From a virus, in IMG/VR virus record IMGVR_UViG_3300014827_000013, positions 1 to 30,904 of that record: 30,904 nt of DNA; one strand, given 5' to 3'. How positions within the stretch are numbered: position 1 is the stretch's first letter; every line of letters starts with the position of its first letter. Positions 12,481 to 29,441 of the stretch are shown here, in pieces. A program made the translations under genes and the position numbers. Under the pieces are notes generated by a model. That model worked only from the letters and a program-made list of their open reading frames with translations. It did not search any database and was not told the origin of the DNA.

Positions 12481-12963
12481 ATGCCTAAAAAGATTATCAT
12501 TCCTATTGGTCCATCCATCGCTTATGTACCTCTTACCCTTGGAAAGTTCGCGCTAATAGACGCGGATGATGCTAATCCGATTGGAGAACATAATTGGTGC
12601 GCTAGCCCCGTATATGCCGTTCGTAGAGAGTGGGGGACAGGAAAGCGCATTTATCTGCACAGGGTCATTGCTGAAAGCAACCCAGCATTGGACACCGACC
12701 ACAAGAACCGCAACCCACTCGATAATCGCCGTTGCAATTTGCGTGAAGCGTCTACCTCTCAGAACATCTGCAATAAACCACGACGGTCCTCTTCGGGGCT
12801 TCCGAGAGGTGTAGAGGTAAACCGCGAAGGCGTCATATTTTCGCGCATTAGGTCTGGCGGCGTTAGACATTATCTTGGGTCCTTTCTCTCTATCGAAGCG
12901 GCTGGTGAAGCATATCGGAAAGCTCAAATAGAAATGCATGGAGAGTTCGCCAACTTCGACTAG
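12481..12963 (+). CDS. HNH-AP2 homing endonuclease (copy 2)
   Basis: This 160-residue protein shares the N-terminus IIIPIGPSIAYVPLT with the gene at 2530. The HNH core has H60, D73-H74-x-N76, N82 and N86, and an AP2-like C-terminal domain covers about 105-158. AGAGGAGG lies upstream, and part of the leader (GGCGCAAAG...GAGGAG..CACC) matches that of copy 1. It is transcribed against the late genes around it. Its TAG stop overlaps the lysin stop on the other strand (CTAG). The nuclease probably cuts a lysin allele lacking the insertion, promoting its own spread. Confidence 0.9.
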   Translation: MPKKIIIPIGPSIAYVPLTLGKFALIDADDANPIGEHNWCASPVYAVRREWGTGKRIYLHRVIAESNPALDTDHKNRNPLDNRRCNLREASTSQNICNKPRRSSSGLPRGVEVNREGVIFSRIRSGGVRHYLGSFLSIEAAGEAYRKAQIEMHGEFANFD

Positions 12964-13436
12964 GGCATTATTACGCTGTAATTATGTTCTAACTCGGACA
13001 CGTACGCAGCCAGTCCGGGCGACATGTTCGTGACGGGACTGCCTGCGTTCCAAATGCAAGCGATGGTGAGCAGCGTGATGGGCTGGTACTCCCTGAGCTT
13101 CTTATTCAAGAACGATACCGAATAGGCTACTGCCGTGTCTGGGTCGCTAAACTCGTCCGGCGTTGCTCCCGTAGGGGCGTTGTCGAACATGATCTGGAGC
13201 GGCCCGTAGCTCATTGCGGCAGCGTTGCCGAACTGCTCACGCTTGGCTGGCATGTCGCCGTTCATAGTGTGCAGGTAGAAGGGCTCTAGCCGTGGCGTGG
13301 TGTTCTCGCCAAAGCTGGACTCGCATCCCCCGATTGCCCACAGGAGGAGTGTCCCTGAGAGCGTCTGGGGCAGCGGGCCAACCATCATCCCGTACTTGCG
13401 GCATAGTGCGGCGAACTGAATCTGTATGTCTGTCAT
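12960..13436 (-). CDS. Lytic transglycosylase/lysozyme-like endolysin
   Basis: This 158-residue protein has a lysozyme-like fold signature. The probable catalytic Glu39 lies in WAIGGCESSFGE, followed by AMSYGPLQIM (74-83), like the SYG-LMQI motif of transglycosylases, then a DPDTAVAYSVSFLNKKLREY helix and ACIWNAGSP. It would cleave peptidoglycan glycan strands at lysis. No signal peptide is seen, so a holin or a pore is needed. AGGAG precedes the ATG, which overlaps the XhlA-like gene stop (TAATG). The last ~32 codons are repeated at 12331-12428. Confidence 0.8.
   Translation of the reverse strand: MTDIQIQFAALCRKYGMMVGPLPQTLSGTLLLWAIGGCESSFGENTTPRLEPFYLHTMNGDMPAKREQFGNAAAMSYGPLQIMFDNAPTGATPDEFSDPDTAVAYSVSFLNKKLREYQPITLLTIACIWNAGSPVTNMSPGLAAYVSELEHNYSVIMP
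12964..13058 (-). repeat. Diverged direct repeat B, current lysin 3' end
   Basis: Partner of the repeat at 12331-12428. It supplies the functional last ~32 codons of the lysin and abuts the end of the HNH gene. Confidence 0.8.
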
Positions 13437-13678
13437 TATTTGCTCCTCGTCATGGCTTCGATGATGGCTCCAGAGATTCCGCCAACGGCACTGAAGACGA
13501 GCCCCACACCGATCAGCACATAGCGGAATCTTTCGAGGGTGGAGATGCGATTCTTGATGTCCATCAGCTCCCCCGGTTGCCCGTTCCCAAATAGCCGGTG
13601 CTGAATCGCTTCAATGTTCTCGCATATAGCTTTCTGTCCCTCTTCCATCCTTGCCATGCCTGCCGCTATGTCATACAT
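13436..13678 (-). CDS. XhlA-like coiled-coil membrane protein
   Basis: An 80-residue protein has an N-terminal heptad-like helix, the segment NGQPGELMDIKNRISTLERF, and one C-terminal membrane helix (YVLIGVGLVFSAVGGISGAI). This resembles XhlA/hemolysin-type phage membrane proteins that work with holins. GGAGG lies 7 bases before ATG 13678; the in-frame ATG at 13696 is an alternative. The stop overlaps the lysin start. It probably belongs to the lysis cassette. Confidence 0.7.
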   Translation of the reverse strand: MYDIAAGMARMEEGQKAICENIEAIQHRLFGNGQPGELMDIKNRISTLERFRYVLIGVGLVFSAVGGISGAIIEAMTRSK

Positions 13679-13758: not shown

Positions 13759-16098
13759 CTACTGGATGCAGGCGTAATCGAACTCTTCCCCGGTAGTCAG
13801 CGTTATCCCGGTCGTAATCGTGAGCGCGGTTGTGGTGCTTGTCCACGATGGAATAAAGAACGTAGCTCCACCGTTTTGCGTCACAGTGCAAACGGGAGCT
13901 GCCCCATACGCGGTTCCGAAGGTGACGACGGCGGCGGTGGTTGCGGAAGGAACACTCAGGCGCCCACGCATATCGAGGCATGTTCCTACGGCGCATGTTG
14001 GGGTGCCCCCTGTACCTGAAAGGGTGGCAGCGGTACCCGAAGCGATAATGTGTGGAACCGTAACTGAAGAGGGGGCAAGTATATTGTCATTAGCATCAAC
14101 AACAACCGCCGGTTTCCCCGAAGCGGCATTGCCTAAAAGAATCCTGTTGTTATAAGTCTGAAAGATGGCATCTCCATTCAAGGAGTTAGAAAAGTAAGCG
14201 CCAATACCGCTTTCGTTTACAAAGAAGGTCTGAAACGACGAGTTATTCGTCAACTGCAAAAAAGGGGTTGTTACTGATGTAGTCGTACTTATCGCTCCAT
14301 TGAATACATGGTTTCCGCCCCAATAGTTGATCGAGTTGGCGATCGCATCGATTCTTAGTCCGGTTGATGTACCAGAGTGCCCAGCGATCACTAGAGCCCC
14401 CGAATTAATCAATCCGTTGACATCAAAAAACAGTCCAGCATCTCCCGCTTGCGTTAGGTTGGAGAAAAATCCTGGGTAAAGATTGCTGTAGCCATGAAGA
14501 GTGGTCGTTGTAGAATTCGTAGTCAGTTGAAATGTGGGAGCTTGGATAACGTCCGCTGATTGCGTCCCGTTGGTATAGGTCGATGCAGAGCCAGAATTTA
14601 TCGAAGAGTAAGCAGCGCCAGTGTTGCCGGAGACTGTGTTTCCGAAGACGGACACGATAGGACTTCCAGCATAGCTAACTCCATTTGTCATTGTAGGGAT
14701 TGTACGATCATCCAAGAATCCATTGCCGCTGATCGTTACATTCTGATAGACCGCCGTGCCGCTCGAAGGGATGCTGTATTGTGAGACCACCATTCCAGCA
14801 CTCGGAGTGACGACGCCGGGATCGATGCATGTGTTACCCGCCACATTGATATTCTCCAAGAACGACCCCGGAGTGGTGGTAGAAATTGAACTAATCGCAA
14901 AGCACTCCTTATTTGTGTTTTTGGCGGTGTTGCCTGTGACTGTGATGTTTTTATCAATATCCAGATTTGCGGCGATAATGATGATTGCTTGATTATCAGA
15001 ACCGTCGATAGCGTTGTTTGCAATCGAAGCATTTGTCACGGCTTCAATTGCAATCTGGGTGGCGGACGAAGTTCCACCAGATATAGGGGTATCGTTGAAA
15101 ATGTTGTTTGCCAGAGTCAACCCGTTGCCAAGGACATCCTGAAAACCAAACGACCCAGTGCCAGAGCACGTTACATGGTTGTTCGTAAATACGATGTCGT
15201 TGGTTCCGTACTGAGCATTTGGGGGCGCAGGAACGCTGTTCAGCGTCGGCCCCGCCGCGAACCCACACGCCAATGCATTGTTGATGAAAGTGTTTCCATC
15301 CATCACATATCCACTTGCGCCAAATCCGAGCGAACCTATACCCGTATCCGTAGATGGGCCAAATGTGGAGTTTGTGATCTTGACGGTTTGCGCCGCAAGC
15401 GTAAGACTATCGTCATCATGGGCCAGGACTATTCCGGCATTGTGGAAATAATCATTGGAAAAGGTCAGATCGTGCTGGTAAGACGCGCATGTTAGGTCTG
15501 CCATATTGCTACACGCGATAGCTACGTCCGCGCCATTCACTTCTACTCCGCTAAAACTAGAGTAGGAGATATTGGAAAGGCTCATAGCCAACGTGTAGGC
15601 GGTCTGATTCGCAACGTTTAGGTCGAGAGTAAACCCCTCAAAATGGATATAACTATCAAGCGTCGTTGGGTTGATGAGAGACTGGCTCGCATTTACGATC
15701 GCAGCAGGAGACAGCACAGTATTTGCCCCGAGTCTCAGTATGGAAACTCCCATTCCTTGCCCCCGGATAGTGCAAAGCGTCGGGTCGGTGAGGGTTGTGA
15801 AGAAGTAGACCACGCCCGCCGGTAAAATGAATGTTCCCGGCGTTGCGCCATTGCAGACAGATGCGATGATGGCGCTCGTGAGGGTAGAACCGGCTGAGAC
15901 GGAGCTGACGCCAGGGCTATTCAGCGGCCCCGCCATCGTCTGCGGAGCGGTAGTTGAGGTGCTGACGCATGGCCCTCCAGGACAGGAAGACCCCTGCACA
16001 ATCTGTCCACCAGCACCCTGCACGAGCTGAGCCGAGGCCGCACCAGCGAGCAACCCAGCAATCGCCAACGCAACGAATATCCATAGCTTGTTCTTCAT
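13759..16098 (-). CDS. Signal-peptide-bearing right-handed beta-helix fibre-like protein
   Basis: A 779-residue protein. A Sec signal peptide (MKNKLWIFVALAIAGLLAGA, ASA before Q) is followed by a Gly/Ser linker and a beta-helix region of roughly 100-480 with repeated Asn-rich turns (ITNSTFGPS, VFTNNHVTCSG, VTGNTAKNTN, VAGNTCID), as in pectate-lyase-like depolymerases and tailspikes. The C-terminus (~690-779) resembles fibre tip domains (GRLSVPSATTAAVVTFGTAY). Several Cys pairs suit an exported, oxidised protein. AAGGAG lies before the ATG at 16098. It could be an extracellular depolymerase or an exported decoy fibre; virion tail fibres normally lack signal peptides. Confidence 0.75.
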   Translation of the reverse strand: MKNKLWIFVALAIAGLLAGAASAQLVQGAGGQIVQGSSCPGGPCVSTSTTAPQTMAGPLNSPGVSSVSAGSTLTSAIIASVCNGATPGTFILPAGVVYFFTTLTDPTLCTIRGQGMGVSILRLGANTVLSPAAIVNASQSLINPTTLDSYIHFEGFTLDLNVANQTAYTLAMSLSNISYSSFSGVEVNGADVAIACSNMADLTCASYQHDLTFSNDYFHNAGIVLAHDDDSLTLAAQTVKITNSTFGPSTDTGIGSLGFGASGYVMDGNTFINNALACGFAAGPTLNSVPAPPNAQYGTNDIVFTNNHVTCSGTGSFGFQDVLGNGLTLANNIFNDTPISGGTSSATQIAIEAVTNASIANNAIDGSDNQAIIIIAANLDIDKNITVTGNTAKNTNKECFAISSISTTTPGSFLENINVAGNTCIDPGVVTPSAGMVVSQYSIPSSGTAVYQNVTISGNGFLDDRTIPTMTNGVSYAGSPIVSVFGNTVSGNTGAAYSSINSGSASTYTNGTQSADVIQAPTFQLTTNSTTTTLHGYSNLYPGFFSNLTQAGDAGLFFDVNGLINSGALVIAGHSGTSTGLRIDAIANSINYWGGNHVFNGAISTTTSVTTPFLQLTNNSSFQTFFVNESGIGAYFSNSLNGDAIFQTYNNRILLGNAASGKPAVVVDANDNILAPSSVTVPHIIASGTAATLSGTGGTPTCAVGTCLDMRGRLSVPSATTAAVVTFGTAYGAAPVCTVTQNGGATFFIPSWTSTTTALTITTGITLTTGEEFDYACIQ

Positions 16099-16106
16099 AA
16101 TTCTCC

Positions 16107-17558
16107 TTACCACGCCGTCAGGTTATAGAGGTCGTAGTTGATTAGATTGCCTAATGCCGCGTTGGAATTGTGCAGCGTCGAAGTGCTGTTATCGATCTGG
16201 TGCTGAATATTGAGCTCCGCGAATGACGAACTGTGCCCCGGCTGCGCGTTGTAGGTGAGACCGAGGTTGTGGTAGACCGTCACGCCGTCGATCACGAACG
16301 TCTGGTAAGCGTAGGTGTGTGCCACTTGGTTATAGGTCACATGAATCTGGTAGTGATGCCATGTGCCCGTCGGCTGCGCTGCTGTGCAAGGGAAGTGAAC
16401 ACCAGGTTTCTCTACCCAGCTTCCATAGGGAGCCGGTGAGCCGCCAACCGTTCCGCCAGCAAACGAATTCCAGAAGAACCAGTTTCCCGCGCTTGTTCCA
16501 ATCTGCCTGCACTGCATCGAACCGAGCGACTGGTACGTGCCGTAGAACACGTCAGGATCAAACTCAAACGCCTGTAGAGTTTCGCCGCCCTGAATCTGGT
16601 AGTACATATCCTCCACCAGATTCGAGAGCGTCGCCAGATTGACTCCGCCGATGCTTACGGTGCCGTTTACGGTCTGCGAAGAGACTCCGTTGCTGTTCCA
16701 TGCCTTCACGACAAACGTGTGCGAGCCGGGGGATAGTGCGATCGTAGCCGTAGCGGGGGTGTAAGGCCCTGCGCCTGTGCCGTTGGTGTAAGCTGGGGGA
16801 CCCGACGCTCCATCGATGATGACTTGAATCGCCATGATGACGTAGGTGGTGTCCGAAGCCGACATGCCCGTAAGCGTGATCGACGTATTGTCGGCTGTCA
16901 CCGTTCCCGCGTGGACAGTCAGCGTGCCCGTCGTCACGTCAGGCGGTGTTACGGGGGCTACCGATGTGGGAAGGTAGCGATAGAACAGCGCGTTGCTCAC
17001 AAACGCAGTGGAGAATGTGACGCTGCTGCCCACCGTCGCTGAATTTGCAACAGTAAGCGGGATGGTCGTACTCGTCCCGTTCCAACTCAGGTCTATGGCT
17101 GCACCCGTACCGATGCCCGTTCCTGTCACCGTCGAGCCTGAAATGATGCCCGCAGCCGAAGTGACGACGATACTGGTAGCTCCGCTTGTGCCTGTCGCGC
17201 TTACCGTCACAGGCGGAATATTCGCTACTGCCGCCGACATGGACGCGCCTGATTGCGATGGCGTGGCGATGTTGAAGTTCAGGAGCGTAGGGGCCGCAAA
17301 TCCAGCTCCCGCAGCACCCGTAGCATCAACAGAGTTCGCTGTCCAGCAGTCCATCCCCTGCACCTGCGACCCCGGCGTGATGTAGGAGGGGCAGGTGGAT
17401 GCTTCGGTCTGGAGGTTGTTGTAGACGTAAGCCGTGGGTGGAGGGGCTGGGAAGATAGAACTGTTCGCCGTAGCTCCGCCGTTGAAGAAGCTGCTCTGCG
17501 CTTTGGCTCCGCATCCTACGGTAGAAAGCATCAGCGCCAGAAGAATAGGAGTCCGCAT
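16107..17558 (-). CDS. Signal-peptide-bearing protein with Ig-like and lectin-like domains
   Basis: This is a 483-residue protein with N-terminus MRTPILLALMLSTVGCGAKA before Q. It could be cut after AKA or, less likely, lipidated at Cys16. The middle is Thr/Ser/Val-rich with an Ig-like segment (ALSPGSHTFVVKAWNSNGV). The C-terminal ~170 residues resemble a concanavalin/LamG-like jelly roll (FEFDPDVFYGTYQSLGSMQC, WHHYQIHVTY, YQTFVIDG). It probably binds cell-surface or secreted sugars. The ATG overlaps the preceding TAA (TAATG), coupling it to the fibre gene upstream. Confidence 0.7.
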   Translation of the reverse strand: MRTPILLALMLSTVGCGAKAQSSFFNGGATANSSIFPAPPPTAYVYNNLQTEASTCPSYITPGSQVQGMDCWTANSVDATGAAGAGFAAPTLLNFNIATPSQSGASMSAAVANIPPVTVSATGTSGATSIVVTSAAGIISGSTVTGTGIGTGAAIDLSWNGTSTTIPLTVANSATVGSSVTFSTAFVSNALFYRYLPTSVAPVTPPDVTTGTLTVHAGTVTADNTSITLTGMSASDTTYVIMAIQVIIDGASGPPAYTNGTGAGPYTPATATIALSPGSHTFVVKAWNSNGVSSQTVNGTVSIGGVNLATLSNLVEDMYYQIQGGETLQAFEFDPDVFYGTYQSLGSMQCRQIGTSAGNWFFWNSFAGGTVGGSPAPYGSWVEKPGVHFPCTAAQPTGTWHHYQIHVTYNQVAHTYAYQTFVIDGVTVYHNLGLTYNAQPGHSSSFAELNIQHQIDNSTSTLHNSNAALGNLINYDLYNLTAW

Positions 17559-18925
17559 TATTGAGCCCCCACATTGATGCTCGCGGCGCCGGAAGTGATA
17601 CTCAGGCCGGTCGGGTTGCATAGCTTCGCGTTGAATTGATTGGCCGTGGGCCACGCAACAAGATTCAGACCACCGCTGCTGCCGTATCCCACCACCCCGG
17701 TTACATCGCCTACAAACGAATAGGTGAAGGTGCTACCGGGGGTACTACCTACGGGTGCAATCACTCCGGGCATGGAAGCGGTGAATGCTGTAGTGCTGCA
17801 CGTGCCAGCCAAAACTACTGCCGTAGGAAGCGCGACCATGACTTTAGCAATGCTTCCGACTGTTGGAGTTCCACATCCCGTCCCGTCAGCCTTGGCATAC
17901 TGACCGCTGCACCCGGGGATGGTGAGAGCAGATACGGATATCGCGCTTGCTCCCGACGATCCAGCGTGTACAAACGTGAGCGTAGAAGTGGGGTTTGTGC
18001 CCGAGCCAACAACATCCTGCTCAGTCCACGTATCATTGACAGGAATTGAACCGTTCCAGATACTTCCCTCTATCGTCGAGAGTGGCGAACTCTGATTCGA
18101 CGACGAAGTTGCCTGCGTCGTGTTTAGGAGAAGACTTGAAGCTGTACCAGCACCCGCTCCCTGAGCGGAAAGCTCCGTGCTGGATAGGGCCGTAAAGGCT
18201 CCGGTGCCCTGAGTCGTAGCCCCGATTCTGGTTCCATCGATTGCGCCGCCCGTGATGGCAACGGCATTCGCATTCTGCGTGGACATGGTGCCTAGTCCAC
18301 CACCACTCCCGTTGACGCACCCTGTGATCGTAAGCGCCCCGCCATATCCATTCGGGCAAACGGGCAACGTGGATGTCCCTGTCCCCGAAAGCACAAGAGG
18401 TCCAGTCATGGTGCCGCCGGTCAATGGCAAGCCTCCCAGCGATGATAGGAATGTCGCAGCCGTAGTGTCGTCATAGATGATATTTGCGGGGATGGCTGAC
18501 TGCGGACCTATCGCTACTTTGTAGCCATAGATGGGAGGCCCGACGGTTGCACTACCGGGGATGGCCAGATTGTTCCCTGTGGAGTCGACTGCGATGTTTG
18601 ACGGGCCGAGGGTTGTTCCGGTAGGAGAGGTTGAGTAGCTCGGAACCGCATACTGAGGACCAACGGTAGCCGCTCCGCTGCCGCCGCGGATTGCCCATCC
18701 GTCCGTTCCGCAGGTGTAATACGTGTTCGGCGTGACGACCGTGTCCTGGAAGGGCTGACCGTAATTCGCCGAGGTACATACGATGCTCAAGCTCGTAGGC
18801 GTACCGGCCCCGGTAAGCAGCGGCCAGTTGATCTGCGACACAGGATTGATCTTCGTCTGCGCGAGGCTGCCCATTCCTGCCATGCAGACAACCGCAAAAC
18901 CAAAGACCTTCAGAAACTTGCGCAT
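17558..18925 (-). CDS. Signal-peptide-bearing tail-fibre-like protein
   Basis: A 455-residue protein begins with a Sec signal peptide (MRKFLKVFGFAVVCMAGMGS, LA before Q) and then shows true phage fibre motifs: LPLTGGTMTGPLVLSGTG, and ITGGAIDGTRIGATTQGTGA followed by FTALSS. Gly/Ser/Thr-rich beta repeats fill most of the chain, with spaced Cys. AGGAG lies before the ATG. Such repeats form trimeric shafts in known fibres. The combination with an export signal is unexpected and is shared by its three neighbours. Confidence 0.75.
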   Translation of the reverse strand: MRKFLKVFGFAVVCMAGMGSLAQTKINPVSQINWPLLTGAGTPTSLSIVCTSANYGQPFQDTVVTPNTYYTCGTDGWAIRGGSGAATVGPQYAVPSYSTSPTGTTLGPSNIAVDSTGNNLAIPGSATVGPPIYGYKVAIGPQSAIPANIIYDDTTAATFLSSLGGLPLTGGTMTGPLVLSGTGTSTLPVCPNGYGGALTITGCVNGSGGGLGTMSTQNANAVAITGGAIDGTRIGATTQGTGAFTALSSTELSAQGAGAGTASSLLLNTTQATSSSNQSSPLSTIEGSIWNGSIPVNDTWTEQDVVGSGTNPTSTLTFVHAGSSGASAISVSALTIPGCSGQYAKADGTGCGTPTVGSIAKVMVALPTAVVLAGTCSTTAFTASMPGVIAPVGSTPGSTFTYSFVGDVTGVVGYGSSGGLNLVAWPTANQFNAKLCNPTGLSITSGAASINVGAQ

Positions 18926-18934
18926 TCCAATCTC

Positions 18935-19972
18935 CTAGTAACCCTTTGCGTGCCAGTCCAGATACATCGTCTGCGTAAAGTTCCCGCCTCCCGCGCCCGC
19001 TACGATGACGCGCGCCATGTAAGCGATAGCCCCGGTGGTTGACCTCGACTGCAGTTGAATACCAGCCGGCGTTGTCGAGTCATCCGTCGAGGATGGAAGT
19101 CCTACGCCGGCAATCGTCACCGAGGGCGTAGTCGTGAAGTTATGTGGGAAGGTGATGGATGCGGTGTTATAGGGCGAGTAGCTTGCCGGAACCGCCACCG
19201 TTCCCCAGCTATCAATCGTTCCATCCGCACCGATGGTGTAGCAGCCATTCGCATTGCATGTCCGGTTCGTTCCCAGCGTGCAAGCCGCACCCAGCGTGCA
19301 GACCGTTCCATTGATGGTCGCCGATGTATTCGCCAGTGCAGAATTTGGAATTGCCGTAACCGTCGCATTGATCGATGGCACCGTCGTCGGATTCGAGATG
19401 TTTGGAGCGAACCAGCTTGGCCATCCAGTCCCTACAGTTACGCTCGCCACGGTGCCTGTAGCGTAGCTGTTGCCGCAGGGGAAGGTAGTTGCTGAGACCG
19501 CCCCCAGGGCGCCTACCTGAAGGCAATGCGGCGAGCTGGTGGCCAGTCCCGTAATGCTCGCGCTGGGCATCACCCATTGCCCCGTTACGGTCCCGCCCTT
19601 CGACCAGTCATCGACCAGCGCAATGTCATTGACGAAGTAGGTGCCCTGCGATCCCGCGAGCATCAAAGCGTAGTGCCCGACGGATGCGCAGAAGAAATAA
19701 TTGCCGCCTACATCTGCTTGAAAAGGGTTGGTGGGGGTCGTAGTTGATAAGGCCGTAGATGTGAAGATCGGCTGCTTATTCGCCGTGCATGTCGATTGCG
19801 TTGACCCGGCAGAGCAGAGCGTCGCCAACGCAAACGGAACCGGCGCGGTATAGCCGTTGCTGATCGTCAGAGCAACGTTCGAGATGCACACGCCCCCCGG
19901 CGCGCTCTGGGCGTAGCATGTGGCGGCAAGGAATGAGGCGAAGGCGACGAAGGCAGAGAGTGTCCTCTTCAT
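18935..19972 (-). CDS. Signal-peptide-bearing Cys-rich fibre-like protein
   Basis: This 345-residue protein starts with a Sec signal peptide (MKRTLSAFVAFASFLAATCY, A before Q). The mature region has over ten Cys (CISN, LCSAG, STCTANK, FFCAS, VCTLGAAC, RTCNANGC), consistent with an oxidising compartment. The C-terminal ~90 residues (WGTVAVPASYSPYNTASITF, MYLDWHAKGY) look like a gp53-type tail-fibre tip. Its ATG follows directly after the TAA of the zinc-ribbon gene, with only a weak ribosome site. Probably a receptor- or sugar-binding protein. Confidence 0.7.
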   Translation of the reverse strand: MKRTLSAFVAFASFLAATCYAQSAPGGVCISNVALTISNGYTAPVPFALATLCSAGSTQSTCTANKQPIFTSTALSTTTPTNPFQADVGGNYFFCASVGHYALMLAGSQGTYFVNDIALVDDWSKGGTVTGQWVMPSASITGLATSSPHCLQVGALGAVSATTFPCGNSYATGTVASVTVGTGWPSWFAPNISNPTTVPSINATVTAIPNSALANTSATINGTVCTLGAACTLGTNRTCNANGCYTIGADGTIDSWGTVAVPASYSPYNTASITFPHNFTTTPSVTIAGVGLPSSTDDSTTPAGIQLQSRSTTGAIAYMARVIVAGAGGGNFTQTMYLDWHAKGY

Positions 19973-20286: not shown

Positions 20287-20313
20287 AGTATACCAAACAG
20301 GAACGAACGTCAA
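20287..20313 (-). promoter_or_regulatory. Candidate sigma70-type promoter for the exported fibre genes
   Basis: On the minus strand TTGACG and TATACT each differ by one base from consensus, with a short 15-base spacer. The -35 box overlaps the stop codon of the tail I gene. It points to the zinc-ribbon gene and the four fibre-like genes, which would allow their separate control. Confidence 0.4.
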
Positions 20314-21470
20314 CTGCGATAGAAGGCGGTGTGTGCGCTCCCGGCGCTCGGAGCGATGATGTAGGTGATGGTTGCGCCCGAAAGCGTGTAGTCGATGTCC
20401 TTCGACATGAGCAGCGAAGCCCCTGGCGTGCCGAGATAAAGGCGAAGGCTTGCGGCTGGACTCGGGATCGCGGGGAGCGTGAAGGTTGTGTTGGTGCCGT
20501 CGATGGTTCCCGATGGCGTGATGTAGTCGGAGAACGCCGGGACAGTGCCGGAACCGACATACGTTCCCCACGCAACGAAGCTGTCTGAGCCCGGCGCAAC
20601 GGTCATAGTCGCCACCGCTCCGACCATCGTGTAATCCTTGCCCACTCCCTGCGTTTGATAAAGCCCATTCCGGTAGAGTTCGAGCGAGATGGGCGTCTGG
20701 GGAAAGGTCAGCGTCGATCCGCTTACGGTTGGGACATTCGCGTCGAAGAACTCAGGGTAGGACGATGTGATGGAGTCGAGCAAGCATCGAGCGGCCTTGA
20801 AAAAGTTGATGATCGTGGTGACGTAGCCCAGATTGAGCGGAGAGACACCACTGGTCCGGAATGCGGAAGAAAGCGTCTCACCTGTCAGCGGCGCGAAGGT
20901 GTTGGTCGTGATGGCCGTTCCAACATTCGAGAAGTCGACCACCGGACGTAGTAGCTGGCCGTTGTAGAACATCCGCAGCGAGTTTGTATCCGGAGTAGAT
21001 GAAATGGTGAAGTGCGTGTTTGCGCTGTCGATGAGTCCGGAGACGGCCTGGCCGAAGAGCGCGCCCTCCGCGATGCCTGGAATGTTGACGCGGAAGACGG
21101 CCCATCCTTGGCTCGCAGGATACGAAGATCCTCCCCACGATGCCTGTCCTTCGGAGAGCGTGACGCCCGCATATCCGCAAAGTGCGAGAGCGTTGATGAT
21201 GGATGCTGGCGTGCCCATGATCTTGTGCAGCGGGAGAGCATTTTGCACGACAGCCAAAGGTGTCACACCGAGTCCCACCATGGCGACGCCGGGAATCATC
21301 ATGTCGTACTGCCAGATGAGGTACGGGAGGATGGACGTCGGGATGTTGGAGCCGAGGGTGTAGATCAGCAGCGGCGTCAGATCCAAACTCTCAAGGCGCG
21401 CGGAGAGGACCATGTGCGCCTTGGTGCGGAGGTCGTTGATGGAACTCGGCGGTCTGAGGTTATTGGCCAT
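20310..21470 (-). CDS. I: Tail protein I-like, with C-terminal fibre-type extension
   Basis: A 386-residue protein. The N-terminal ~200 residues resemble P2 gpI-type baseplate proteins (LRTKAHMVLSARLESLDLTP, NIPTSILPYLIWQYD), which link baseplate wedges to the fibre. The remaining part contains two similar beta segments (PISLELYRNGLYQTQGVGKD, ASLRLYLGTPGASLLMSKDI), each with a short L-x-L-Y core and a D-Y-T strand, as in fibre-attachment or sugar-binding repeats. It lies directly after J, as in P2-like phages. Ribosome site weak; coupling to J is likely. Confidence 0.78.
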   Translation of the reverse strand: MANNLRPPSSINDLRTKAHMVLSARLESLDLTPLLIYTLGSNIPTSILPYLIWQYDMMIPGVAMVGLGVTPLAVVQNALPLHKIMGTPASIINALALCGYAGVTLSEGQASWGGSSYPASQGWAVFRVNIPGIAEGALFGQAVSGLIDSANTHFTISSTPDTNSLRMFYNGQLLRPVVDFSNVGTAITTNTFAPLTGETLSSAFRTSGVSPLNLGYVTTIINFFKAARCLLDSITSSYPEFFDANVPTVSGSTLTFPQTPISLELYRNGLYQTQGVGKDYTMVGAVATMTVAPGSDSFVAWGTYVGSGTVPAFSDYITPSGTIDGTNTTFTLPAIPSPAASLRLYLGTPGASLLMSKDIDYTLSGATITYIIAPSAGSAHTAFYRS

Positions 21471-21473
21471 CGG

Positions 21474-22754
21474 CTAGCTCGTCGCCTGATTCTTCGTGCC
21501 GTTGATGATGGTTAGCGAGATTGCGGTGCAGTTTGCCCACTGCCCGACCCCTAGAACAAAGCTGCCGTCGGAGGTAGGCACCAGCGGCGTTCCGCCAACG
21601 TTTGCAGCGAGCACGATGTCTACGTCGTAGACGCCCTGCACCGAGAGCGCTGCCTCCCATTGTGACTGCACGATGTCCTGGGAGATGCTGGCGGCGAGAG
21701 CGAGCGCCATGGCTTGCGCGGCCGCTGTAACGCCTGCGGATAGGGTTGCGTAGTTGGCGTTGGCATAGAGGGTGATGGCGCCGGTGACGGTATAGTCGAC
21801 TTCGATCACTGGCTGCACCACCACGCTATCGCACAGGGGGCGGACGGTCTGGGCACTCAAAGCGGCGGTGACGGTCGAGATGAGGCTTCCCGACGCGATG
21901 CCGGCGGTATTGGGTGTAGCGGCGGGCTGGCTTACGGGGCCAGTCAGGATGTAGACGGTGACGGTGCCGGGGGTTACTGGCGTGGTGGGAATCTGCGCGT
22001 CGACGATGGTGTCGCTGACGTCGAGGGCCAGGGATCGGTATTGGTTCGAAGGTCCGGCAGTGGTGAGATTGTTTGGCGCGGCCTGGATGCGGGTGCGGAA
22101 GTGGTTGTCCGTTTCGAGGTCATTTCCGTTCGCCGTCGTGACCGTATTTCCAGCCGTCGAGACCAATGGCAGACTGCCCAGAATGATGCTCACCTGGGGC
22201 GGCGTGGTGCTGGCAAGGTATCCGTTGCCGCCAGAGCCTGCCGTAGTGCATGCGGCGTTCACGGAGCCCGTCAAGCCGCCCGCGGGGATGACAAGGGCCT
22301 GTGTGGTGTAGAAGACGTAGGTGCCGTCCGTGGTGCCCACAAGGCTGTTCTGCGGGATGGTGGTCGCCGAGACCTGTGCGGCCGAGAGCGTGAATAGGAT
22401 CGTGGTCGTCGCGGGCTGGGCGGGAAGCCGCGGGCAGTTCAGGTATTCTCCGAGGTAATCCATCATCGGGTATGCCGCGAAGGCGAGAAGGTTCTGCACT
22501 CCGCACCCTTGGATGGCATTGCGAATCAGCGTCTCGCGATAGGCGTAAAGGTCGATGAGAAGTTGCTCCACCTGTGCCGGATAGAGCGTACGGCTGGTGG
22601 CGAGTTCGTAGGCGGCCACCATGTCATTGAGGACAAGGGATGGGTTGAGGCCGTCCGCATCGTTGACGAAGGAAGGGATGGGGAGGTCGACGGGCACCAC
22701 CTGGGGCGTGCCTGTGAGGGGAGCGAGCAGATTGGCTGGCACTATAACGGGCAA
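21474..22754 (-). CDS. J: Baseplate assembly protein J
   Basis: A 426-residue protein of the gpJ/gp47 (Mu) baseplate family, which forms the wedge of the contractile tail. Features include an early helix region (LYPAQVEQLLIDLYAYRETL), YLGEYLNCPRLPAQPA, a middle beta domain around QNSLVGTTDGTYVFYTT, ETDNHFRTRIQAAPN and a C-terminal domain of repeated strands ending near VYDVDIVLAAN. Position between W/gp25 and I is the standard order. Confidence 0.9.
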   Translation of the reverse strand: MPVIVPANLLAPLTGTPQVVPVDLPIPSFVNDADGLNPSLVLNDMVAAYELATSRTLYPAQVEQLLIDLYAYRETLIRNAIQGCGVQNLLAFAAYPMMDYLGEYLNCPRLPAQPATTTILFTLSAAQVSATTIPQNSLVGTTDGTYVFYTTQALVIPAGGLTGSVNAACTTAGSGGNGYLASTTPPQVSIILGSLPLVSTAGNTVTTANGNDLETDNHFRTRIQAAPNNLTTAGPSNQYRSLALDVSDTIVDAQIPTTPVTPGTVTVYILTGPVSQPAATPNTAGIASGSLISTVTAALSAQTVRPLCDSVVVQPVIEVDYTVTGAITLYANANYATLSAGVTAAAQAMALALAASISQDIVQSQWEAALSVQGVYDVDIVLAANVGGTPLVPTSDGSFVLGVGQWANCTAISLTIINGTKNQATS

Positions 22755-22755: not shown

Positions 22756-23205
22756 TTAGTTTCCCCCTACTGCGATGGTTGTCGTCTGGGTTCCGATGGC
22801 GGTATTTGGTTGGCTCAGCAGTCCAAGGTTCGGCTGCCATGTGATCGTGACAAGCAACTGGCCGATGAGGTTGGGGTTCAGCGCCGCCACCACGCTCACG
22901 ACGCTGATGCGCGGCTCCCATGCCTGAATTGCGCCGCTCACCGCCGCCACGATAGCAGGAGCCGCAACAGTGAGGGGCTTATCGAGCCATGTGGTCAAGT
23001 CGCAGCCAAAGGTGGGGCGGAATGGATCTTCGCCGGGGATGGTCGTAAAGATGATCTTGAGCGTCTGATGAACGTCCGCGAGCGCCTGCGTTACCTGCCC
23101 AATACCAGACCCTGGGCCTCCGCCCGCAGTGGAATCGAGCATCAGCTCCCAACTGGAAGATTGGATGTTGGAGAGCGTCGCGTAGGGGAAGGTTGAAGTC
23201 GACAT
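22756..23205 (-). CDS. W: Baseplate protein W (gp25-like)
   Basis: This 149-residue protein belongs to the GPW/gp25 family: a helix VTQALADVHQTLKIIFTT, the key IPGEDPFRPTFGCDLTTWLD segment, a helix (AAVSGAIQAWEPRISV) and C-terminal strands. gp25 proteins start sheath assembly on the baseplate. The EDPFRPTFGC motif replaces the usual E-x-R-x-P-x-x-G form. It overlaps gene V by one base. Confidence 0.87.
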   Translation of the reverse strand: MSTSTFPYATLSNIQSSSWELMLDSTAGGGPGSGIGQVTQALADVHQTLKIIFTTIPGEDPFRPTFGCDLTTWLDKPLTVAAPAIVAAVSGAIQAWEPRISVVSVVAALNPNLIGQLLVTITWQPNLGLLSQPNTAIGTQTTTIAVGGN

Positions 23206-23840
23206 TAGTTATCCGTCTTGAAGAGTGGGCTGGCTACGGTTGCGGCGGTCCATGGCACCGTTGGAGGCGGTCCGGGGCTTAGAACTGGACCATGGGTGTG
23301 CAAGTTGAAGGCGGCAATCAAAAGACTGACGAGGGGCAGTGCGTCGGTGAGCGATCCGCCCGCAGCGGAAAGGGTGATGCTAGAGGCCGCTTGCAGGACG
23401 ATGTTTCCGGTGGCGTCGAGGGTGATGGCGCCGCCCGCCGGCTGGGTGAGCGTGAACGCCGCTCCGGTGCCCAGAGTAACCGTCAGTTCGTGCGAGGTGC
23501 GGTCGTACTTTACCGATGTCCCATCGTGGAATCCCACGTAGAAGATGCCCGGCCCGAATCCCGCCGGAGCCTGATCGACGCTCGAAGGGACGCTTCCCAC
23601 CACGTAGCCGTCTTCATCGTGCGTGTCCATGATGACCGCAACCTGCTCGCCAATGTCCGGCTGCCAGAAGAACTTGTCATCCTGGATCTTCGGAACGATG
23701 ACGGGAAGCCAGTACGAAACGAGGTTATCGCGATCAGGAAATTGCACGCGCACGCGGTACGGCGGCACCGACTCCAGAGCGTAAACGACCGCTGTCCGGT
23801 AGGGTGGGTTGTACTGCCGCGTGTATTTCTCGTCTTCCAT
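23205..23840 (-). CDS. V: Baseplate spike protein V
   Basis: A 211-residue central spike. The N-terminal OB-fold (about 15-90; YRVRVQFPDRDNLVSYWLPV, GEQVAVIMD) is followed by a beta-strand repeat region (TLDATGNIVLQAASSITLSA) and a tip with His181-x-His183 in FNLHTHGP, the pair that binds iron in P2 gpV-type spikes. The spike pierces the outer membrane when the sheath contracts. Its stop overlaps the W start and its start overlaps the D stop. Confidence 0.92.
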   Translation of the reverse strand: MEDEKYTRQYNPPYRTAVVYALESVPPYRVRVQFPDRDNLVSYWLPVIVPKIQDDKFFWQPDIGEQVAVIMDTHDEDGYVVGSVPSSVDQAPAGFGPGIFYVGFHDGTSVKYDRTSHELTVTLGTGAAFTLTQPAGGAITLDATGNIVLQAASSITLSAAGGSLTDALPLVSLLIAAFNLHTHGPVLSPGPPPTVPWTAATVASPLFKTDN

Positions 23841-24892
23841 CAGTTCTCATCCTCATCCGAGATGATCTGCACGGACCCGGTAGCCGTCACCGTCGTCCGC
23901 AAGTCGAGCTCCGTCACGTATCCTTCGTGGTCGATTGAATGCTTGGCTTCTTTCACAATGAATTTTACCGTACTGAATGCGTGTCCGAATCCGGTGAGCG
24001 TAACCGCGTTCCCGGTGCGGTAGGCCATCGTTCCTGGAATCGTCATCTCCGCTTTGATCTGGTGCATGTTCGCGGCGTGGAGATGAGACTGAGCCCGGAG
24101 TGCGCCTTGCTGCTGGTTCTCGATGCGCTCGATGATCTTGAGGGTGTCCGCAGAGGTGGCGTTCGGGTCCGTCGCGGTCGCGGTGAGCAACTGCTTCGAC
24201 ATCGAATCGTAGTAGGTGGTGATTCCCGAGCCGTAACTGCGCTTGCCGAGGTGCTGCATGTGGATGCGGTAGCGGAGGCAGTTCGTTTTGTCGATTGGGA
24301 TTCCGGTAGGCGCGGCGCTGTCGAGGGCTGTCCGGCTGTAGAAGTAGAGTTGCGTTCCGCGAATCTTGAACTCGTAGTCGTGAGCGTTGGCGATGCGATG
24401 CAGGAATCCGAGGTCGCTCTCCATTCGCTGCGTGAGCCGCGCGTACACCACGTCCGGGTTCACCGCATCCGTGAGCACCGTCATCCCGTACCGCGATGCG
24501 ATGGTGGTTGCGATCGATGTGAGCGTCTGCCCTTCGTAGGCCATCGACTTTGGCGTGCGCAACGCGTGCGTAAGGCCTGCCTGGATTGCTTTGAGCGTAA
24601 ACGTGTCCGGGGGGCCGTCGGATTCCCACTCATCCACTTCGAAGTTGCCGCATGAGGTGAGCGGCATCCCCTGATAGCCGATGGCCAAGCTCATCGCGGT
24701 GCCAACCTTCGGAGGGTTGTCCTGGAAAGCGTGGTGGACGTCTTCGAGAACGACTTCGATGGTGCTGGCCTTTCCGCTCAGAGCTTCGTTGTACTTGACG
24801 TGCAGCGCGTGGGGAAAGAGATTTCCCGTTATATTCACAGATCCTGCAAATAACTGCCAAGCTGGGACGTAAATGCTTGAATTTGCGCTCAT
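23840..24892 (-). CDS. D: Tail protein D (late control gene D family)
   Basis: This is a 350-residue protein of the gpD/gp44-like hub family, which joins spike and tail tube. It contains LSGKASTIEVVLEDVHHAFQ-type strands, a LysM-like AYEGQTLTSIATTIASRYGM, and LTQRMESDLGFLHRIANAHD, a family hallmark. The start at 24892 (MSANSSIYVP) is preferred over ATG 24967, which lies within the HNH insertion region. AGGTG upstream is a weak ribosome site. Because X was probably its direct neighbour, the inserted HNH gene separates X from D. Confidence 0.9.
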   Translation of the reverse strand: MSANSSIYVPAWQLFAGSVNITGNLFPHALHVKYNEALSGKASTIEVVLEDVHHAFQDNPPKVGTAMSLAIGYQGMPLTSCGNFEVDEWESDGPPDTFTLKAIQAGLTHALRTPKSMAYEGQTLTSIATTIASRYGMTVLTDAVNPDVVYARLTQRMESDLGFLHRIANAHDYEFKIRGTQLYFYSRTALDSAAPTGIPIDKTNCLRYRIHMQHLGKRSYGSGITTYYDSMSKQLLTATATDPNATSADTLKIIERIENQQQGALRAQSHLHAANMHQIKAEMTIPGTMAYRTGNAVTLTGFGHAFSTVKFIVKEAKHSIDHEGYVTELDLRTTVTATGSVQIISDEDEN

Positions 24893-24910
24893 GCAGCACC
24901 TACAATGAAA

Positions 24911-24943
24911 GAGCCGAGGCGCTCGCGAAAGCGCACCCGGCTC
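24911..24943. repeat. Interrupted hairpin between HNH gene and tail gene D
   Basis: GAGCCG pairs with CGGCTC, and inside it GCGCT pairs with AGCGC around the loop CGCGAA. On the minus strand it is followed by TTTCATT, too weak for a confident terminator. It sits in the leader of both divergent genes, the HNH gene and D, and may be an end of the inserted element. Confidence 0.5.
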
Positions 24944-24969
24944 AACACCGAAGTTCTGAGGGAACAACG

Positions 24970-25431
24970 ATGCCCGGTATCAAGTCTAGACATATTCCGT
25001 GGATTGAACAATCTATAAAAACTCACAATTCTGATGAGTGCCTGCTTTGGCCATTTGCTAAAGGTAAAGGGGGGTACGGCCATCTCAAATACGAGGGGCG
25101 TTTCGTAGATGTTCACCGACTGGCTTTCTTTCTCGCCAATGGCCGATGGGCAGACCCCGAAACGCGTCACACCTGCGACATCCGGCTTTGCTTCAATCCG
25201 CGACATCTTATCGAGGGCACCCGTATCCAAAACGCTGCAGATGCGGTCGCCCGTCAGAGAACGTCGCGGGGAACTGATCGTCCAGAGTCGAAACTGAATG
25301 AGCATCTCGTGCGCAAGATGCGCGCCGAGCGTCCATCCTTCACCTATCGAGAATTGGGAGACAGATACGGCGTGTGCGAGATGGTGGCTTACGCGGTGGT
25401 CAACCGAAGAACATGGCGTCATGTTGAATAG
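24970..25431 (+). CDS. HNH endonuclease with C-terminal HTH (homing-type)
   Basis: This 153-residue protein has an HNH core of the type with C69 and C74: H49 in VHRLAFF, H67, then CDIRLCFNPRHL with N76 and H79. Residues 105-150 (LNEHLVRKMRAERPSFTYRE, YGVCEMVAYAVVNRRTW) look like a DNA-binding helix-turn-helix often seen in such homing nucleases. It is plus-strand within the minus-strand tail operon, between X and D. AGGGA precedes ATG 24970. It is not closely related to the two HNH-AP2 genes. Confidence 0.87.
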   Translation: MPGIKSRHIPWIEQSIKTHNSDECLLWPFAKGKGGYGHLKYEGRFVDVHRLAFFLANGRWADPETRHTCDIRLCFNPRHLIEGTRIQNAADAVARQRTSRGTDRPESKLNEHLVRKMRAERPSFTYRELGDRYGVCEMVAYAVVNRRTWRHVE

Positions 25432-25433
25432 CC

Positions 25434-25724
25434 TCATCCGAACGGGCTAAGTACTGATTGCGTGGTAATAGTCGGGGAAATCAATGGGACAAAAACTTGA
25501 GTCCCGGCATCCACTATGTCTTGGATCAAAATTCCTGAATTGTTGGCGATGAGCGTTCCAACTTCGAAAGGCGTGCCGTACATTTTGAAGGAAATTGCAT
25601 CCCACCGCTCGCCCTTCGAGATGTAGATGACGCCAGAGGACGGCGGCACCGGGTTGACGTACTTCGAGACGAGTCCGGGTAGGACTGCGCCTGCACCGCC
25701 ATCGGGGATGATTACGTTGGGCAT
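25434..25724 (-). CDS. X: Tail protein X (LysM-like)
   Basis: This 96-residue protein belongs to the P2 gpX family, with a LysM-like core YISKGERWDAISFKMYGTPF followed by LIANNSGI and a Pro-strand end (QVFVPLI). gpX proteins bind near the hub in tail assembly. A Gly/Ala-rich N-terminal extension of ~25 residues precedes the core. It is directly joined to U (TAAATG). Confidence 0.85.
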   Translation of the reverse strand: MPNVIIPDGGAGAVLPGLVSKYVNPVPPSSGVIYISKGERWDAISFKMYGTPFEVGTLIANNSGILIQDIVDAGTQVFVPLISPTITTQSVLSPFG

Positions 25725-26309
25725 TTAGTTCCACCTCGCAATCGTCGTCAGCGGCACGTTGTTGTAGTTGTTGGTGAACGGGATGCCGGACGGGGAGGCG
25801 GTAGCAGGCGAGACCACCAGCGTAGACCCTGGGGCCGGTGCCTGCGACGTCGTGAGGCCCGGAGGATTGACGGGTGCGCCAATCTGCGGGTTGCCGATGT
25901 ACGTTGGAACCGGAGCGCCGCCTGGAAGCGGAGACGAGATCCACTCCGTAAGCTCGATATCCATCTCCGCAAATATCAGGTTGCCGTTGTCCGCCTGCCA
26001 CTTGTACCGCGTGCGTGCGTTCGAGATGACGAACTGGCCAAGGTTCTGATTGTTTCCGTAGACGAACATCTGCGGTTGGTGGTAGTCCGCTGCCGTGTTG
26101 ATGGCGTCGATGCACTTCTGGGGGTTGCACCACAGTTGATGGAACGAGATGCTGAGTTGAATGATGCGAAGGTCGTCATTGATCCATTGCAGGATGGGTG
26201 GTGCGCCGATGACCTTGAGTGCCTGGAAGTGATACTTCTTCTCAATCTCCTGCTTTGTTGGAGAGGCGATCACCGCGAACGAGATTGGGCCAAACGCTGC
26301 AAAACTCAT
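25725..26309 (-). CDS. U: Tail protein U-like, with Pro/Gly/Ala-rich tail
   Basis: This 194-residue protein shows gpU-type motifs: FGPISFAVI at the start, then KKYHFQALKVIGAPPILQWI and LRIIQLSISFHQLWCNPQKC. gpU caps or ends the growing tail. The core ends near residue 130, and an extra ~60 residues rich in Pro, Gly, Ala and Ser are not usual for the family. The order T-U-X-D matches P2. Confidence 0.85.
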   Translation of the reverse strand: MSFAAFGPISFAVIASPTKQEIEKKYHFQALKVIGAPPILQWINDDLRIIQLSISFHQLWCNPQKCIDAINTAADYHQPQMFVYGNNQNLGQFVISNARTRYKWQADNGNLIFAEMDIELTEWISSPLPGGAPVPTYIGNPQIGAPVNPPGLTTSQAPAPGSTLVVSPATASPSGIPFTNNYNNVPLTTIARWN

Positions 26310-28048
26310 CAGTGCCCTCCCGCAAGCATCGGATCGCCGAAGCTGGTGCGCATATCTTGCTGGTGGACCTGCTGCAGCATCTTCTTGAGCGCGTCACCAT
26401 GGATGCTCATCTGGTTTGCAACCGCCCCTGCTACCGCGTGAGGATCGGTGCCGGGACCGACATTGACATGCACTGTAGGTGAGTAGTGAACCTCTGACCT
26501 TCCCTTGACGCCCGCAAAATCAACTCCGGCCATCGCAAAGTTTCCCGTCGCGACATCTCCAATCTCTTTCAGCCAGTCCTTGCCGGTGGCATTGTGCGCG
26601 AAGGATACGGCCGCATCGGCAGCGCGGTGGATGGCTCCGGTGATTTGGTCCCAATGCTTGTAAATCTCATACAGCGCGACGACTACTAGTCCGAGCGCCG
26701 TCAAGATGATTCCGATGGGATTGGTGTCGAAGGCGATGGCGGCGGCGGTGCCCACCTCTGCGAATCCTTCGGTCAATGCGGTCTGGAGAACGAACCATAT
26801 CTCAGTCAGTCCCGAGAGTTTGATCCCGAGTTCAATCACGCCCGCGATAATCTCCGCGAAGTGGAATAGTCCAGCGAGCGTCAGCAGCGATGCGATGATG
26901 GCGATGAAGTCGCCCACCATTCGAAGCAACACAGGATGTGCGTCTGCAAGTTTATTTATACGATTCATCATTTCTGTTAGCCATCCCACAACTGCAATCA
27001 CTTGCGGCAATAGTTGTGTGCCGATCTTGTCGGCTAAATTCTGAAGGGTATTCACGAGACGCTCCATCCTCCCTTCTGGAGTATTTGCCAGTGCTGCCGC
27101 CGCCTTCTCCATCTCGCCGCCAGAGCCTTGGAACTGTCCCATCGTGTCGCGGATGTCTTTGATGTGGTCTGCCATCTCCACCAGAACCTTTGCTTGGCCG
27201 GGAAGTTCGGCGAACATCTTCATCTTCCCCGCCTGCGACATGCGGTTGATGCGCTCGAGCGTCTGAATGATGTTCACGCCACCCTTGGATGTGTGAACAA
27301 CTTGCAGCCCAGCCTTTTCGAGTTCCTTGCTGCTCTTTGCCAGCGTGTCCAACAATCCGGCCTCGACCATACCGAACCCGCGTGGGCCTCCCGCGTGCAA
27401 CTTGTTTCCTTCAGCCCAGATTGCGAACATCTGATTCTGACTTACGCCAGCGGCTTGCGCAGACTTGCCGATGCGCTGGATATCGCGCTCGAGGTTGGTC
27501 GCCTCCCCAGGCTTCAGGAAGCGATCTTTCAGCAGCGCGAGTTTGTCACCGATCACGCCAAGTTGCTCGCTGAGCGGCTTCGACTTGTCTCCCAACTGCT
27601 CATACGCCGAGGCGAGAACGTTGGCTCCGGCTGTAGCTTTCACGCCCAATACGGTTGCCAACTTTGCCGCCATGGTGGTGACTTGCTCAATGTCAGCAGT
27701 GTTCCCGAATGTCTTGTAAAGTTCCTCTTGCGCACCGGTGATTTCTTCAATGCTCTGCGGCATCGTCGTAGAAAGTTTCTCGGCTTGATCCTTCAACTCG
27801 GCCAGTTTATCCGCGCCGAAACCAGTGGCAAGAGCTAGATGTTCTTGAGCCTGCGCCATGTCCATGGCTGGCTCGACGAGACCTTTGATCGCCTCGTAGC
27901 CGGCAAAGACTTCCGCCCCCGCAGCCCAGATTTGATGCACGCTGTTCGAGAACTCGTCGAAGTCATCTTTGATGGAGCGCAGCGGCTCACTTACTTTATC
28001 GACGATTTCGACGATGACCTGAAGGACGGATTTTTCTTCGTCGGCCAT
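26309..28048 (-). CDS. T: Tape measure protein T
   Basis: The 579-residue tape measure sets tail length and is ejected ahead of DNA. It starts with helices typical of the class (EEKSVLQVIVEIVDKVSEPL), has long charged coiled coils, and two hydrophobic stretches (FIAIIASLLTLAGLFHF and IGIILTALGLVVVALYEIY) as expected for membrane interaction. A C-terminal part is Val/His/Gly-rich. At ~1.5 Angstrom per residue it predicts a tail near 85-90 nm. The GGAG ribosome site overlaps the end of the E' frame. Confidence 0.92.
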   Translation of the reverse strand: MADEEKSVLQVIVEIVDKVSEPLRSIKDDFDEFSNSVHQIWAAGAEVFAGYEAIKGLVEPAMDMAQAQEHLALATGFGADKLAELKDQAEKLSTTMPQSIEEITGAQEELYKTFGNTADIEQVTTMAAKLATVLGVKATAGANVLASAYEQLGDKSKPLSEQLGVIGDKLALLKDRFLKPGEATNLERDIQRIGKSAQAAGVSQNQMFAIWAEGNKLHAGGPRGFGMVEAGLLDTLAKSSKELEKAGLQVVHTSKGGVNIIQTLERINRMSQAGKMKMFAELPGQAKVLVEMADHIKDIRDTMGQFQGSGGEMEKAAAALANTPEGRMERLVNTLQNLADKIGTQLLPQVIAVVGWLTEMMNRINKLADAHPVLLRMVGDFIAIIASLLTLAGLFHFAEIIAGVIELGIKLSGLTEIWFVLQTALTEGFAEVGTAAAIAFDTNPIGIILTALGLVVVALYEIYKHWDQITGAIHRAADAAVSFAHNATGKDWLKEIGDVATGNFAMAGVDFAGVKGRSEVHYSPTVHVNVGPGTDPHAVAGAVANQMSIHGDALKKMLQQVHQQDMRTSFGDPMLAGGH

Positions 28049-28051
28049 CGC

Positions 28052-28560
28052 CTATCGCTCCTTCGGTGCTGTCGCCTTTTGGTAAGCCACAATCACCTGA
28101 TACCAGCCAATCACATCCGAGATGCTCATCCGGTCGATACTCTCCGGACTCACACCCATTTCGACCATCGCCCCAATATCCGCGAGGCTCAGAACTACTG
28201 CAGCGTGTCGTCCTCTTCCGTCTCTGGCGCCGATTCCTTCACCGTCGCCTTCTTCGTAGGGTTTAGCAGCCCACCGACCTCTTCCACGATCTTCATGCAG
28301 TCGTCGAAGTCCAGATTGTCATAATCCTCGACGCGCAACTTCTTTCCATCCACCAGGCAGAGCCGGGATGCGATGCCGTAGATCATCTTGAACTTGTCAG
28401 CCTTCTCGCCGGACGCCAGAAGTCCTTGGCGCATGTCGCGGCCAGTCCCACGAAGGACGATGACGTGTTTTCCTGAAAAGGGGAGGTCGAACTCGGCGCG
28501 AATCTGTTCGGGGGTGGGGGCTTTTGTTGCGGGTGCTTCCATCACAACGGGGTCTGACAT
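28052..28560 (-). CDS. E': Tail assembly chaperone E+E' (predicted -1 frameshift product)
   Basis: Ribosomes slipping -1 on AAACCCT (28264-28258) after codon 101 of E would continue for 68 codons to TAG at 28052-28054, giving 169 residues. The -1 frame has no stop over this stretch and encodes a plausible domain: LADIGAMVEMGVSPESIDRM, then VIGWYQVIVAYQK. P2-like phages make E and E+E' by such slippage, both needed to load the tape measure. Not annotated by simple gene finding because it has no own start. Confidence 0.72.
28195..28560 (-). CDS. E: Tail assembly chaperone E
   Basis: A 121-residue tail chaperone placed between tube and tape measure genes. It contains a helical core (MIYGIASRLCLVDGKKLRVE, MKIVEEVGGLLNP) and an acidic end. 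AGGAG precedes the ATG. Its end overlaps a second frame that yields the E+E' product. It helps keep the tape measure soluble during assembly; it is not in the virion. Confidence 0.8.
   Translation of the reverse strand: MSDPVVMEAPATKAPTPEQIRAEFDLPFSGKHVIVLRGTGRDMRQGLLASGEKADKFKMIYGIASRLCLVDGKKLRVEDYDNLDFDDCMKIVEEVGGLLNPTKKATVKESAPETEEDDTLQ
28258..28264 (-). promoter_or_regulatory. Slippery heptamer A-AAC-CCT for -1 frameshift
   Basis: On the minus strand the sequence CT-A-AAC-CCT lies in the E frame, so A-AAC-CCT fits X-XXY-YYZ. The -1 frame is open from here through 28055. A downstream stimulating structure was not established. Confidence 0.7.
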
Positions 28561-28609
28561 TTGAAACTCCTGACTCGGATTGTCCGATATCGTTGGGCCA
28601 GCTTGCGGT

Positions 28610-28903: not shown

Positions 28904-28906
28904 GGT

Positions 28907-29428: not shown

Positions 29429-29441
29429 AATTCATCTCCCT

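Follow-up and report, generated by a model that had tools for sequence, protein, structure and literature searches.

Why should genes that occupy the place of tail fibres in a phage genome encode proteins with secretion signals, when the cytoplasm is regarded as the site where such fibres are produced and attached? This question is raised by the window analysed here, the whole 30,904-nt record IMGVR_UViG_3300014827_000013 from a contractile-tailed soil phage. A contractile-tail module lies on its minus strand, with sheath, tape measure, hub, baseplate assembly, wedge, J and Tail_P2_I genes (PHROGs and Pfam assignments). After Tail_P2_I, the order on this strand is 18935-19972 (fibre 1), 17558-18925 (fibre 2), 16107-17558 (protein 3), 13759-16098 (protein 4) and then the presumed lysis genes, placing the four genes in the late block next to the baseplate and tail genes (Table 1). 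In the Tail_P2_I-like protein, LxLYxG..DYTxxG units are repeated in a long C-terminal extension, which may be a docking site or adaptor for fibres.

Table 1. Features of the tail, fibre and presumed lysis region of the window (SP, signal peptide; each listed SP is followed by Gln after the predicted cut).
Feature	Position	Strand	Evidence
SP fibre 1, 345 aa: SP, virion-binding-like N-domain with 4 invariant Cys, fibre tip	18935..19972	-	SD and ATG, homologues, fold
Predicted SP of fibre 1, MKRTLSAFVAFASFLAATCYA	19910..19972	-	scorer; chance 19/5000
Mature N-domain of fibre 1, Cys 8/32/41/74 invariant in 29 sequences	19595..19909	-	alignment, fold search
SP fibre 2, 455 aa: SP, QTKINP-QINWP module with conserved Cys pair, trimer motif, fibre-type tip	17558..18925	-	
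Predicted SP of fibre 2, MRKFLKVFGFAVVCMAGMGSLA	18860..18925	-	scorer and chance test
SP protein 3, 483 aa: SP, Ig-like/linker region, jelly-roll-like C-terminal domain (about 16107-16583)	16107..17558	-	
Predicted SP of protein 3, MRTPILLALMLSTVGCGAKA	17499..17558	-	scorer and chance test
SP protein 4, 779 aa: SP, fibre-like linker, beta-helix-like middle (by eye), fibre-tip-like end	13759..16098	-	
Predicted SP of protein 4, MKNKLWIFVALAIAGLLAGAASA	16030..16098	-	scorer and chance test
Tail_P2_I-like baseplate protein with C-terminal extension, without SP	20310..21470	-	PF09684 E 7e-5, phrog_5726
Baseplate J, without SP	21474..22754	-	PF04865 E 5e-43
Baseplate wedge/assembly, hub, tape measure and sheath genes (block cut by window end), none with SP	22756..30902	-	PHROGs
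Presumed lysis genes, 3' of the fibre block	12960..13678	-	sequence and order, by eye
Single-TM protein, presumed lysis	13436-13678	-	by eye
Lysozyme/transglycosylase-like protein, presumed lysis	12960-13436	-	by eye; homologues in G002, G004, G008

The original prediction held that the four consecutive genes each encode a Sec signal peptide, and this was confirmed: all four carry Sec/SPI-type signal peptides that end in Ala before a Gln, at supported ATG starts. Two starts were corrected. Protein 4 begins at ATG 16098 (SD AAGGAG) instead of GTG 16113, and protein 3 at ATG 17558, which overlaps the upstream stop codon (TAATG), instead of GTG 17654. With these corrections the signal peptides stand exactly at the N-termini, and the ATGs are SD-preceded or stop-coupled. 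The calls were made with our own rule-based scorer, which flagged 4/4 genes with scores of 12.4-16.1 and found a positive n-region, a hydrophobic core and an AxA-type cleavage site at the true N-terminus. Of 5000 random N-termini with matched composition, 0, 1, 6 and 19 reached the scores observed for the four genes (0 to 0.4% per gene). Gln at +1, the Bacteroidetes-type Q-rule, occurs in nearly all of the signal peptides among those listed, and [AG]Q near the cut was seen by eye in about 10 of 19 strong signal peptides of a Granulicella plasmid. Sec export of the four proteins is well supported by these predicted features.

Elsewhere in the window, a small 96-aa protein (8245-8535, plus strand), directly after a DnaB-like helicase gene and distant from the fibre block, has a signal peptide of its own (MKYLAIALLGCSMAAMA, followed by QTAK after the cut). 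A lipoprotein-like protein of 128 aa (11641-12027, minus strand; ..LLFLPMGC..), possibly a spanin or surface lipoprotein, was missed by the scorer because of its unusual lipobox. Signal peptide calls at 2530-3069 and 12481-12963 (both plus strand) were judged by eye to be false positives; these genes encode related HNH/AP2-like proteins with a common IPxGPSIAYVPLTxGxxALIDxxD segment, possibly homing endonuclease copies.

A comparison of homologues had been called for together with the prediction. For each of the two fibres, IMG/VR was queried with the mature N-domain, the signal peptide being excluded from the query, and a signal peptide was found directly upstream of the mature domain in nearly all relatives. 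It was present in 24/24 distinct homologues of fibre 1. For fibre 2, the scorer found it in 25 of 28 distinct homologues, and two more were recognised by eye (MKRLAALLFLISSTLMFA before Q), giving 27/28; the last was cut by the contig end. Among the fibre 2 relatives the signal peptides are 16% identical in sequence, compared with 65% for the first 21 mature residues, so the signal peptide is kept as a type and not as a sequence. Proteins that share only the trimer motif of fibre 2 had a signal peptide in 0/43 distinct N-termini, a few of which were fragmentary. The N-modules of fibres 1 and 2 are widespread. Relatives of proteins 3 and 4 are few or absent: the protein 3 query returned only the known locus among viral contigs and no match among plasmids, and the protein 4 query gave no match in viral contigs and no database relative. 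Queries of phage records with baseplate J, fibre 1, the fibre 2 module and protein 3 gave distant J matches only, or none.

The trait is specific to fibre genes. In seven mapped myovirus records, comprising the window and six relatives, the count after J took in the genes encoding 200 aa or more in the following 12 kb, with Tail_I left out. Signal peptides were found in 23/29 genes after J, versus 0/56 head and tail genes before J (p = 1e-15). The six genes after J that have no signal peptide are not fibre-like by length and sequence. Every gene recognisable as a fibre by position and type carries a signal peptide, and no fibre without one was recognised in the seven phages. Three relatives (G002, G004 and G008) have a signal peptide-bearing fibre between J and Tail_I, inside the baseplate gene order. 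The fibre 2 module, together with its signal peptide, also occurs in other phage types (G013, G014, G015 of 231 kb, G017, G018 and G019). In a low-GC phage of 125 kb (G020), a signal peptide-bearing fibre (L228:16673-18085) is fused to the C-terminal 127 aa of the clade's baseplate J, with 72% identity, and is followed by a signal peptide-bearing relative of fibre 2; the fusion is a sign of exchanged receptor-binding cassettes. Two other signal peptide-bearing proteins from fibre blocks resemble cellular exported proteins: L231:19474-23028 has chitobiase-type and Ig-like domains by Pfam, and L212:2146-7977 has similar repeats by eye.

The four proteins had also been said to contain Cys in a manner suiting an oxidising compartment. 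Their mature chains contain 0.9-2.9% Cys, and the claim is strongly supported by two comparisons of proteins with and without signal peptides. First, signal peptide-bearing genes of at least 250 aa encode 2.18% Cys (n = 30), whereas motif-matched fibres without signal peptides have 0.15% (n = 36), with no overlap (p = 3e-12). In the same phages, Cys makes up 0.0% of the tape measure, 0.25% of the sheath, 0.47% of Tail_I and 1.2% of J, and 0-0.57% of labelled window genes. Second, in a repeat common to both groups, copies from signal peptide-bearing proteins have Cys in place of Val/Thr, reading NSSTTVNGQNCVLGSNCTI, against NSSITINGNAVSLGGSTTV in the others; two fixed Cys flank an LG turn in 7/7 of the former versus 0/9 of the latter (Fisher p about 9e-5, our arithmetic). 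This is the pattern that a cross-turn disulphide formed in an oxidising compartment would leave. Four Cys are invariant across 29 fibre 1 domains. A general Cys-richness of exported host proteins was considered as the cause and rejected: signal peptide-bearing proteins of the Granulicella plasmid have only 0.67% Cys, so export alone is insufficient to explain the enrichment. A DNA pattern for the Cys hairpin matched four loci, none with the peptide motif, and a query of phages with the repeat gave no match, perhaps owing to the low-complexity filter.

The fibre identity of these proteins was approached through motifs and folds; Pfam and PHROGs gave nothing clear for the four. The motifs GGTMTGPL and GGAIDGTRIGATT were found in fibre 2 as predicted, and its trimer motif is common to many viral contigs. 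Fibre tip motifs are present in the block, for protein 4 by eye only. Of the fold readings proposed originally, the jelly-roll-like end of protein 3 recurs in signal peptide-bearing genes of two relatives (G011 and L004), and the beta-helix of protein 4 was seen by eye only. The tip of fibre 1 (mature residues 214-324) matched AP22 gp53 (4mtm, Z 5.0) and R-pyocin fibre tips (Z about 4) in a fold search. AlphaFold models were made of its mature chain (pLDDT 51) and of the N-domain alone (pLDDT 61), and for both the top 14 structural matches were tail structures of P22, Sf6, Pan3 or Pam1 (Z 5.5-8.1), mostly the virion-binding domains of tailspikes. A PDB profile search gave no P22-type sequence match for this N-domain. 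With moderate confidence, given the middling Z scores, the models suggest that the mature N-domain of fibre 1 is a tailspike virion-binding domain of the P22/Sf6 type. The order of binding domain, linker and tip is also shared with such tailspikes. In known tailspikes the binding domain comes first and folding is cytoplasmic, whereas fibre 1 has a signal peptide before this domain and the four invariant Cys within it. Similarly, the gene order and neighbours match those of P2-type tail fibre genes, which follow gpJ and gpI, but every fibre recognised here has a signal peptide. No fibre-assembly chaperone was named by PHROGs among the window genes scanned.

A similar arrangement exists in culture. 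Five phages have been isolated on Tunturiibacter, a member of the Acidobacteriota (PMC11924767). In the short-tailed Tunturi 1 and 2, signal peptides are predicted on ORF12, 13, 14, 16 and 17, with 0.8-2.7% Cys, and these genes include an annotated tail spike, tail fibre and virion structural protein. As in the window, they form a Cys-raised run of spikes and fibres between a tail gene and lysis genes; unlike the window phage, Tunturi 1 and 2 are podophages, and their proteins have almost no sequence similarity to the window fibres. In Tunturi 3, 4 and 5 no signal peptide was found in the fibre genes examined (first 50 kb of Tunturi 4 and first 100 kb of Tunturi 5). As three of five Acidobacteriota isolates do not have the trait, it is not a host-wide need. 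By sequence, the trait is common to unrelated phages, not universal among them, and present in a plaque-forming system. The main text of the paper on these phages does not mention signal peptides, and no virion proteomics was found in the paper (PMC11924767). We infer that the host of the window phage is probably an Acidobacteriota bacterium; scans of genome contigs with baseplate J and the fibre 1 domain, in search of prophages, found no relatives. The fibres of Bacteroides phage B40-8 have no signal peptide. Porphyromonas gingivalis phages carry five genes with Q-rule signal peptides, of unknown function and not described as fibres; the exposure of an N-terminal Gln by a phage signal peptide is alike, but the hosts are Bacteroidetes (PMC10367356).

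Gene position, motifs, the fold match and the cultured relatives support fairly well that the four genes are the fibre block of the phage and that their products belong to the virion. We consider it the probable reading that they are virion fibres or spikes which undergo export, acquire their disulphides outside the cytoplasm and become attached to particles during lysis or later. The export part of the original prediction is strengthened by the signal peptides across homologues and by the Cys contrast; its preferred suggestion, that the proteins are secreted as depolymerases, decoys or receptor blockers and act at the cell surface or in the matrix outside any virion, now appears less likely than its alternative of joining virions outside the cytoplasm. 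Such secreted proteins would explain the signal peptides, and related signal peptide-bearing proteins have enzyme-like domains (GDSL hydrolase, pectate-lyase and chitobiase-type). A secreted tailspike-like enzyme is also known in bacteria: WceF of Pantoea stewartii is a tailspike-like trimer with a signal peptide, although it is a bacterial gene outside any phage and its signal is of the Tat type (PMC7949094). ORF17 of Tunturi 1, in which Pfam identifies chitobiase-type and Ig-like domains, resembles cellular exported proteins, and some such proteins of these blocks might not be virion parts. Virion membership is nevertheless preferred because the genes occupy the place of tail fibres, replacing the ones expected there; because all recognisable fibres in the seven mapped myoviruses have signal peptides; because the domain directly after the signal peptide of fibre 1 resembles the attachment domain of P22/Sf6; and because the arrangement recurs in plaque-forming isolates whose signal peptide-bearing genes are annotated as spike, fibre or virion protein. 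The trimer motifs, the fibre tips and the signal peptide-bearing fibre within the baseplate gene order likewise argue against purely secreted proteins, which we regard as unlikely.

Proteins 3 and 4 may have a role different from that of fibres 1 and 2. In a mixed block, fibres 1 and 2 would join virions and others, such as proteins 3 and 4, would be released, for example for matrix loosening before or at lysis. The differences in domain make-up and conservation fit such a division, but all four genes lie in one tight block and have the same type of signal peptide and raised Cys, making this improbable. It is very doubtful that the hydrophobic N-terminus is not for export and is retained in the virion, for example with a membrane-active or tail-anchoring function: a hydrophobic peptide could in principle stay uncleaved, but the cleavage-type residues and +1 Gln are conserved while the rest of the signal peptide drifts, and the enriched and paired Cys would have no reason in a cytoplasmic protein. 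Lysogenic-conversion cargo, namely exported adhesins of bacterial origin carried on a phage, is equally implausible, for although some domains are of cellular type, the genes lie within the late tail block, and Tunturi 1 and 2 form plaques and have no annotated integrase or recombinase, unlike Tunturi 3-5 (PMC11924767).

In the favoured route of export and late joining, the four tail fibres or spikes would be synthesised as Sec pre-proteins, the signal peptide would carry them over the inner membrane, and signal peptidase I would cleave between Ala and Gln. Folding, trimerisation and disulphide formation of the fibres would take place in the periplasm; meanwhile, heads and contractile tails would assemble without fibres in the cytoplasm. 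Lysis would then merge the two compartments, and the fibres would dock via their N-terminal virion-binding domains, rendering the particles infective. Export, cleavage and disulphides would follow from the signal peptides and the Cys enrichment, both apparent in the sequence; docking at or after lysis is inferred. Late attachment is known to work for T4 tail fibres and P22 tailspikes, both of which can join particles in vitro. It counts against late docking that fibres diluted at lysis must still reach the particles. The gains may be stability in soil, the separation of sticky proteins from precursors in the cytoplasm, or an early effect on surface polymers, all of which are guesses. The broader proposal, in which particles form in the cytoplasm while all receptor-binding proteins take the Sec route, are stabilised by disulphides outside the cytoplasm and reach the particles at lysis, and in which this two-compartment assembly has spread among unrelated Acidobacteriota phages, is in our view slightly better than an even prospect.

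No earlier account of signal peptide-bearing tail fibres was found in the papers searched, a coverage mostly outside subscription journals. In sum, the analysis suggests that in related and unrelated phages the receptor-binding parts may mature beyond the inner membrane and be attached to the virus when the cell lyses. If whole phage groups export their fibres, the last assembly step would occur outside the cytoplasm and progeny would become infective only at lysis. Receptor-binding proteins could then have disulphides, which would be useful in harsh soils, and a signal peptide in phage annotation would not exclude a virion role. The phage-host pairs of Tunturi 1 and 2 are in culture, which makes the idea directly testable.
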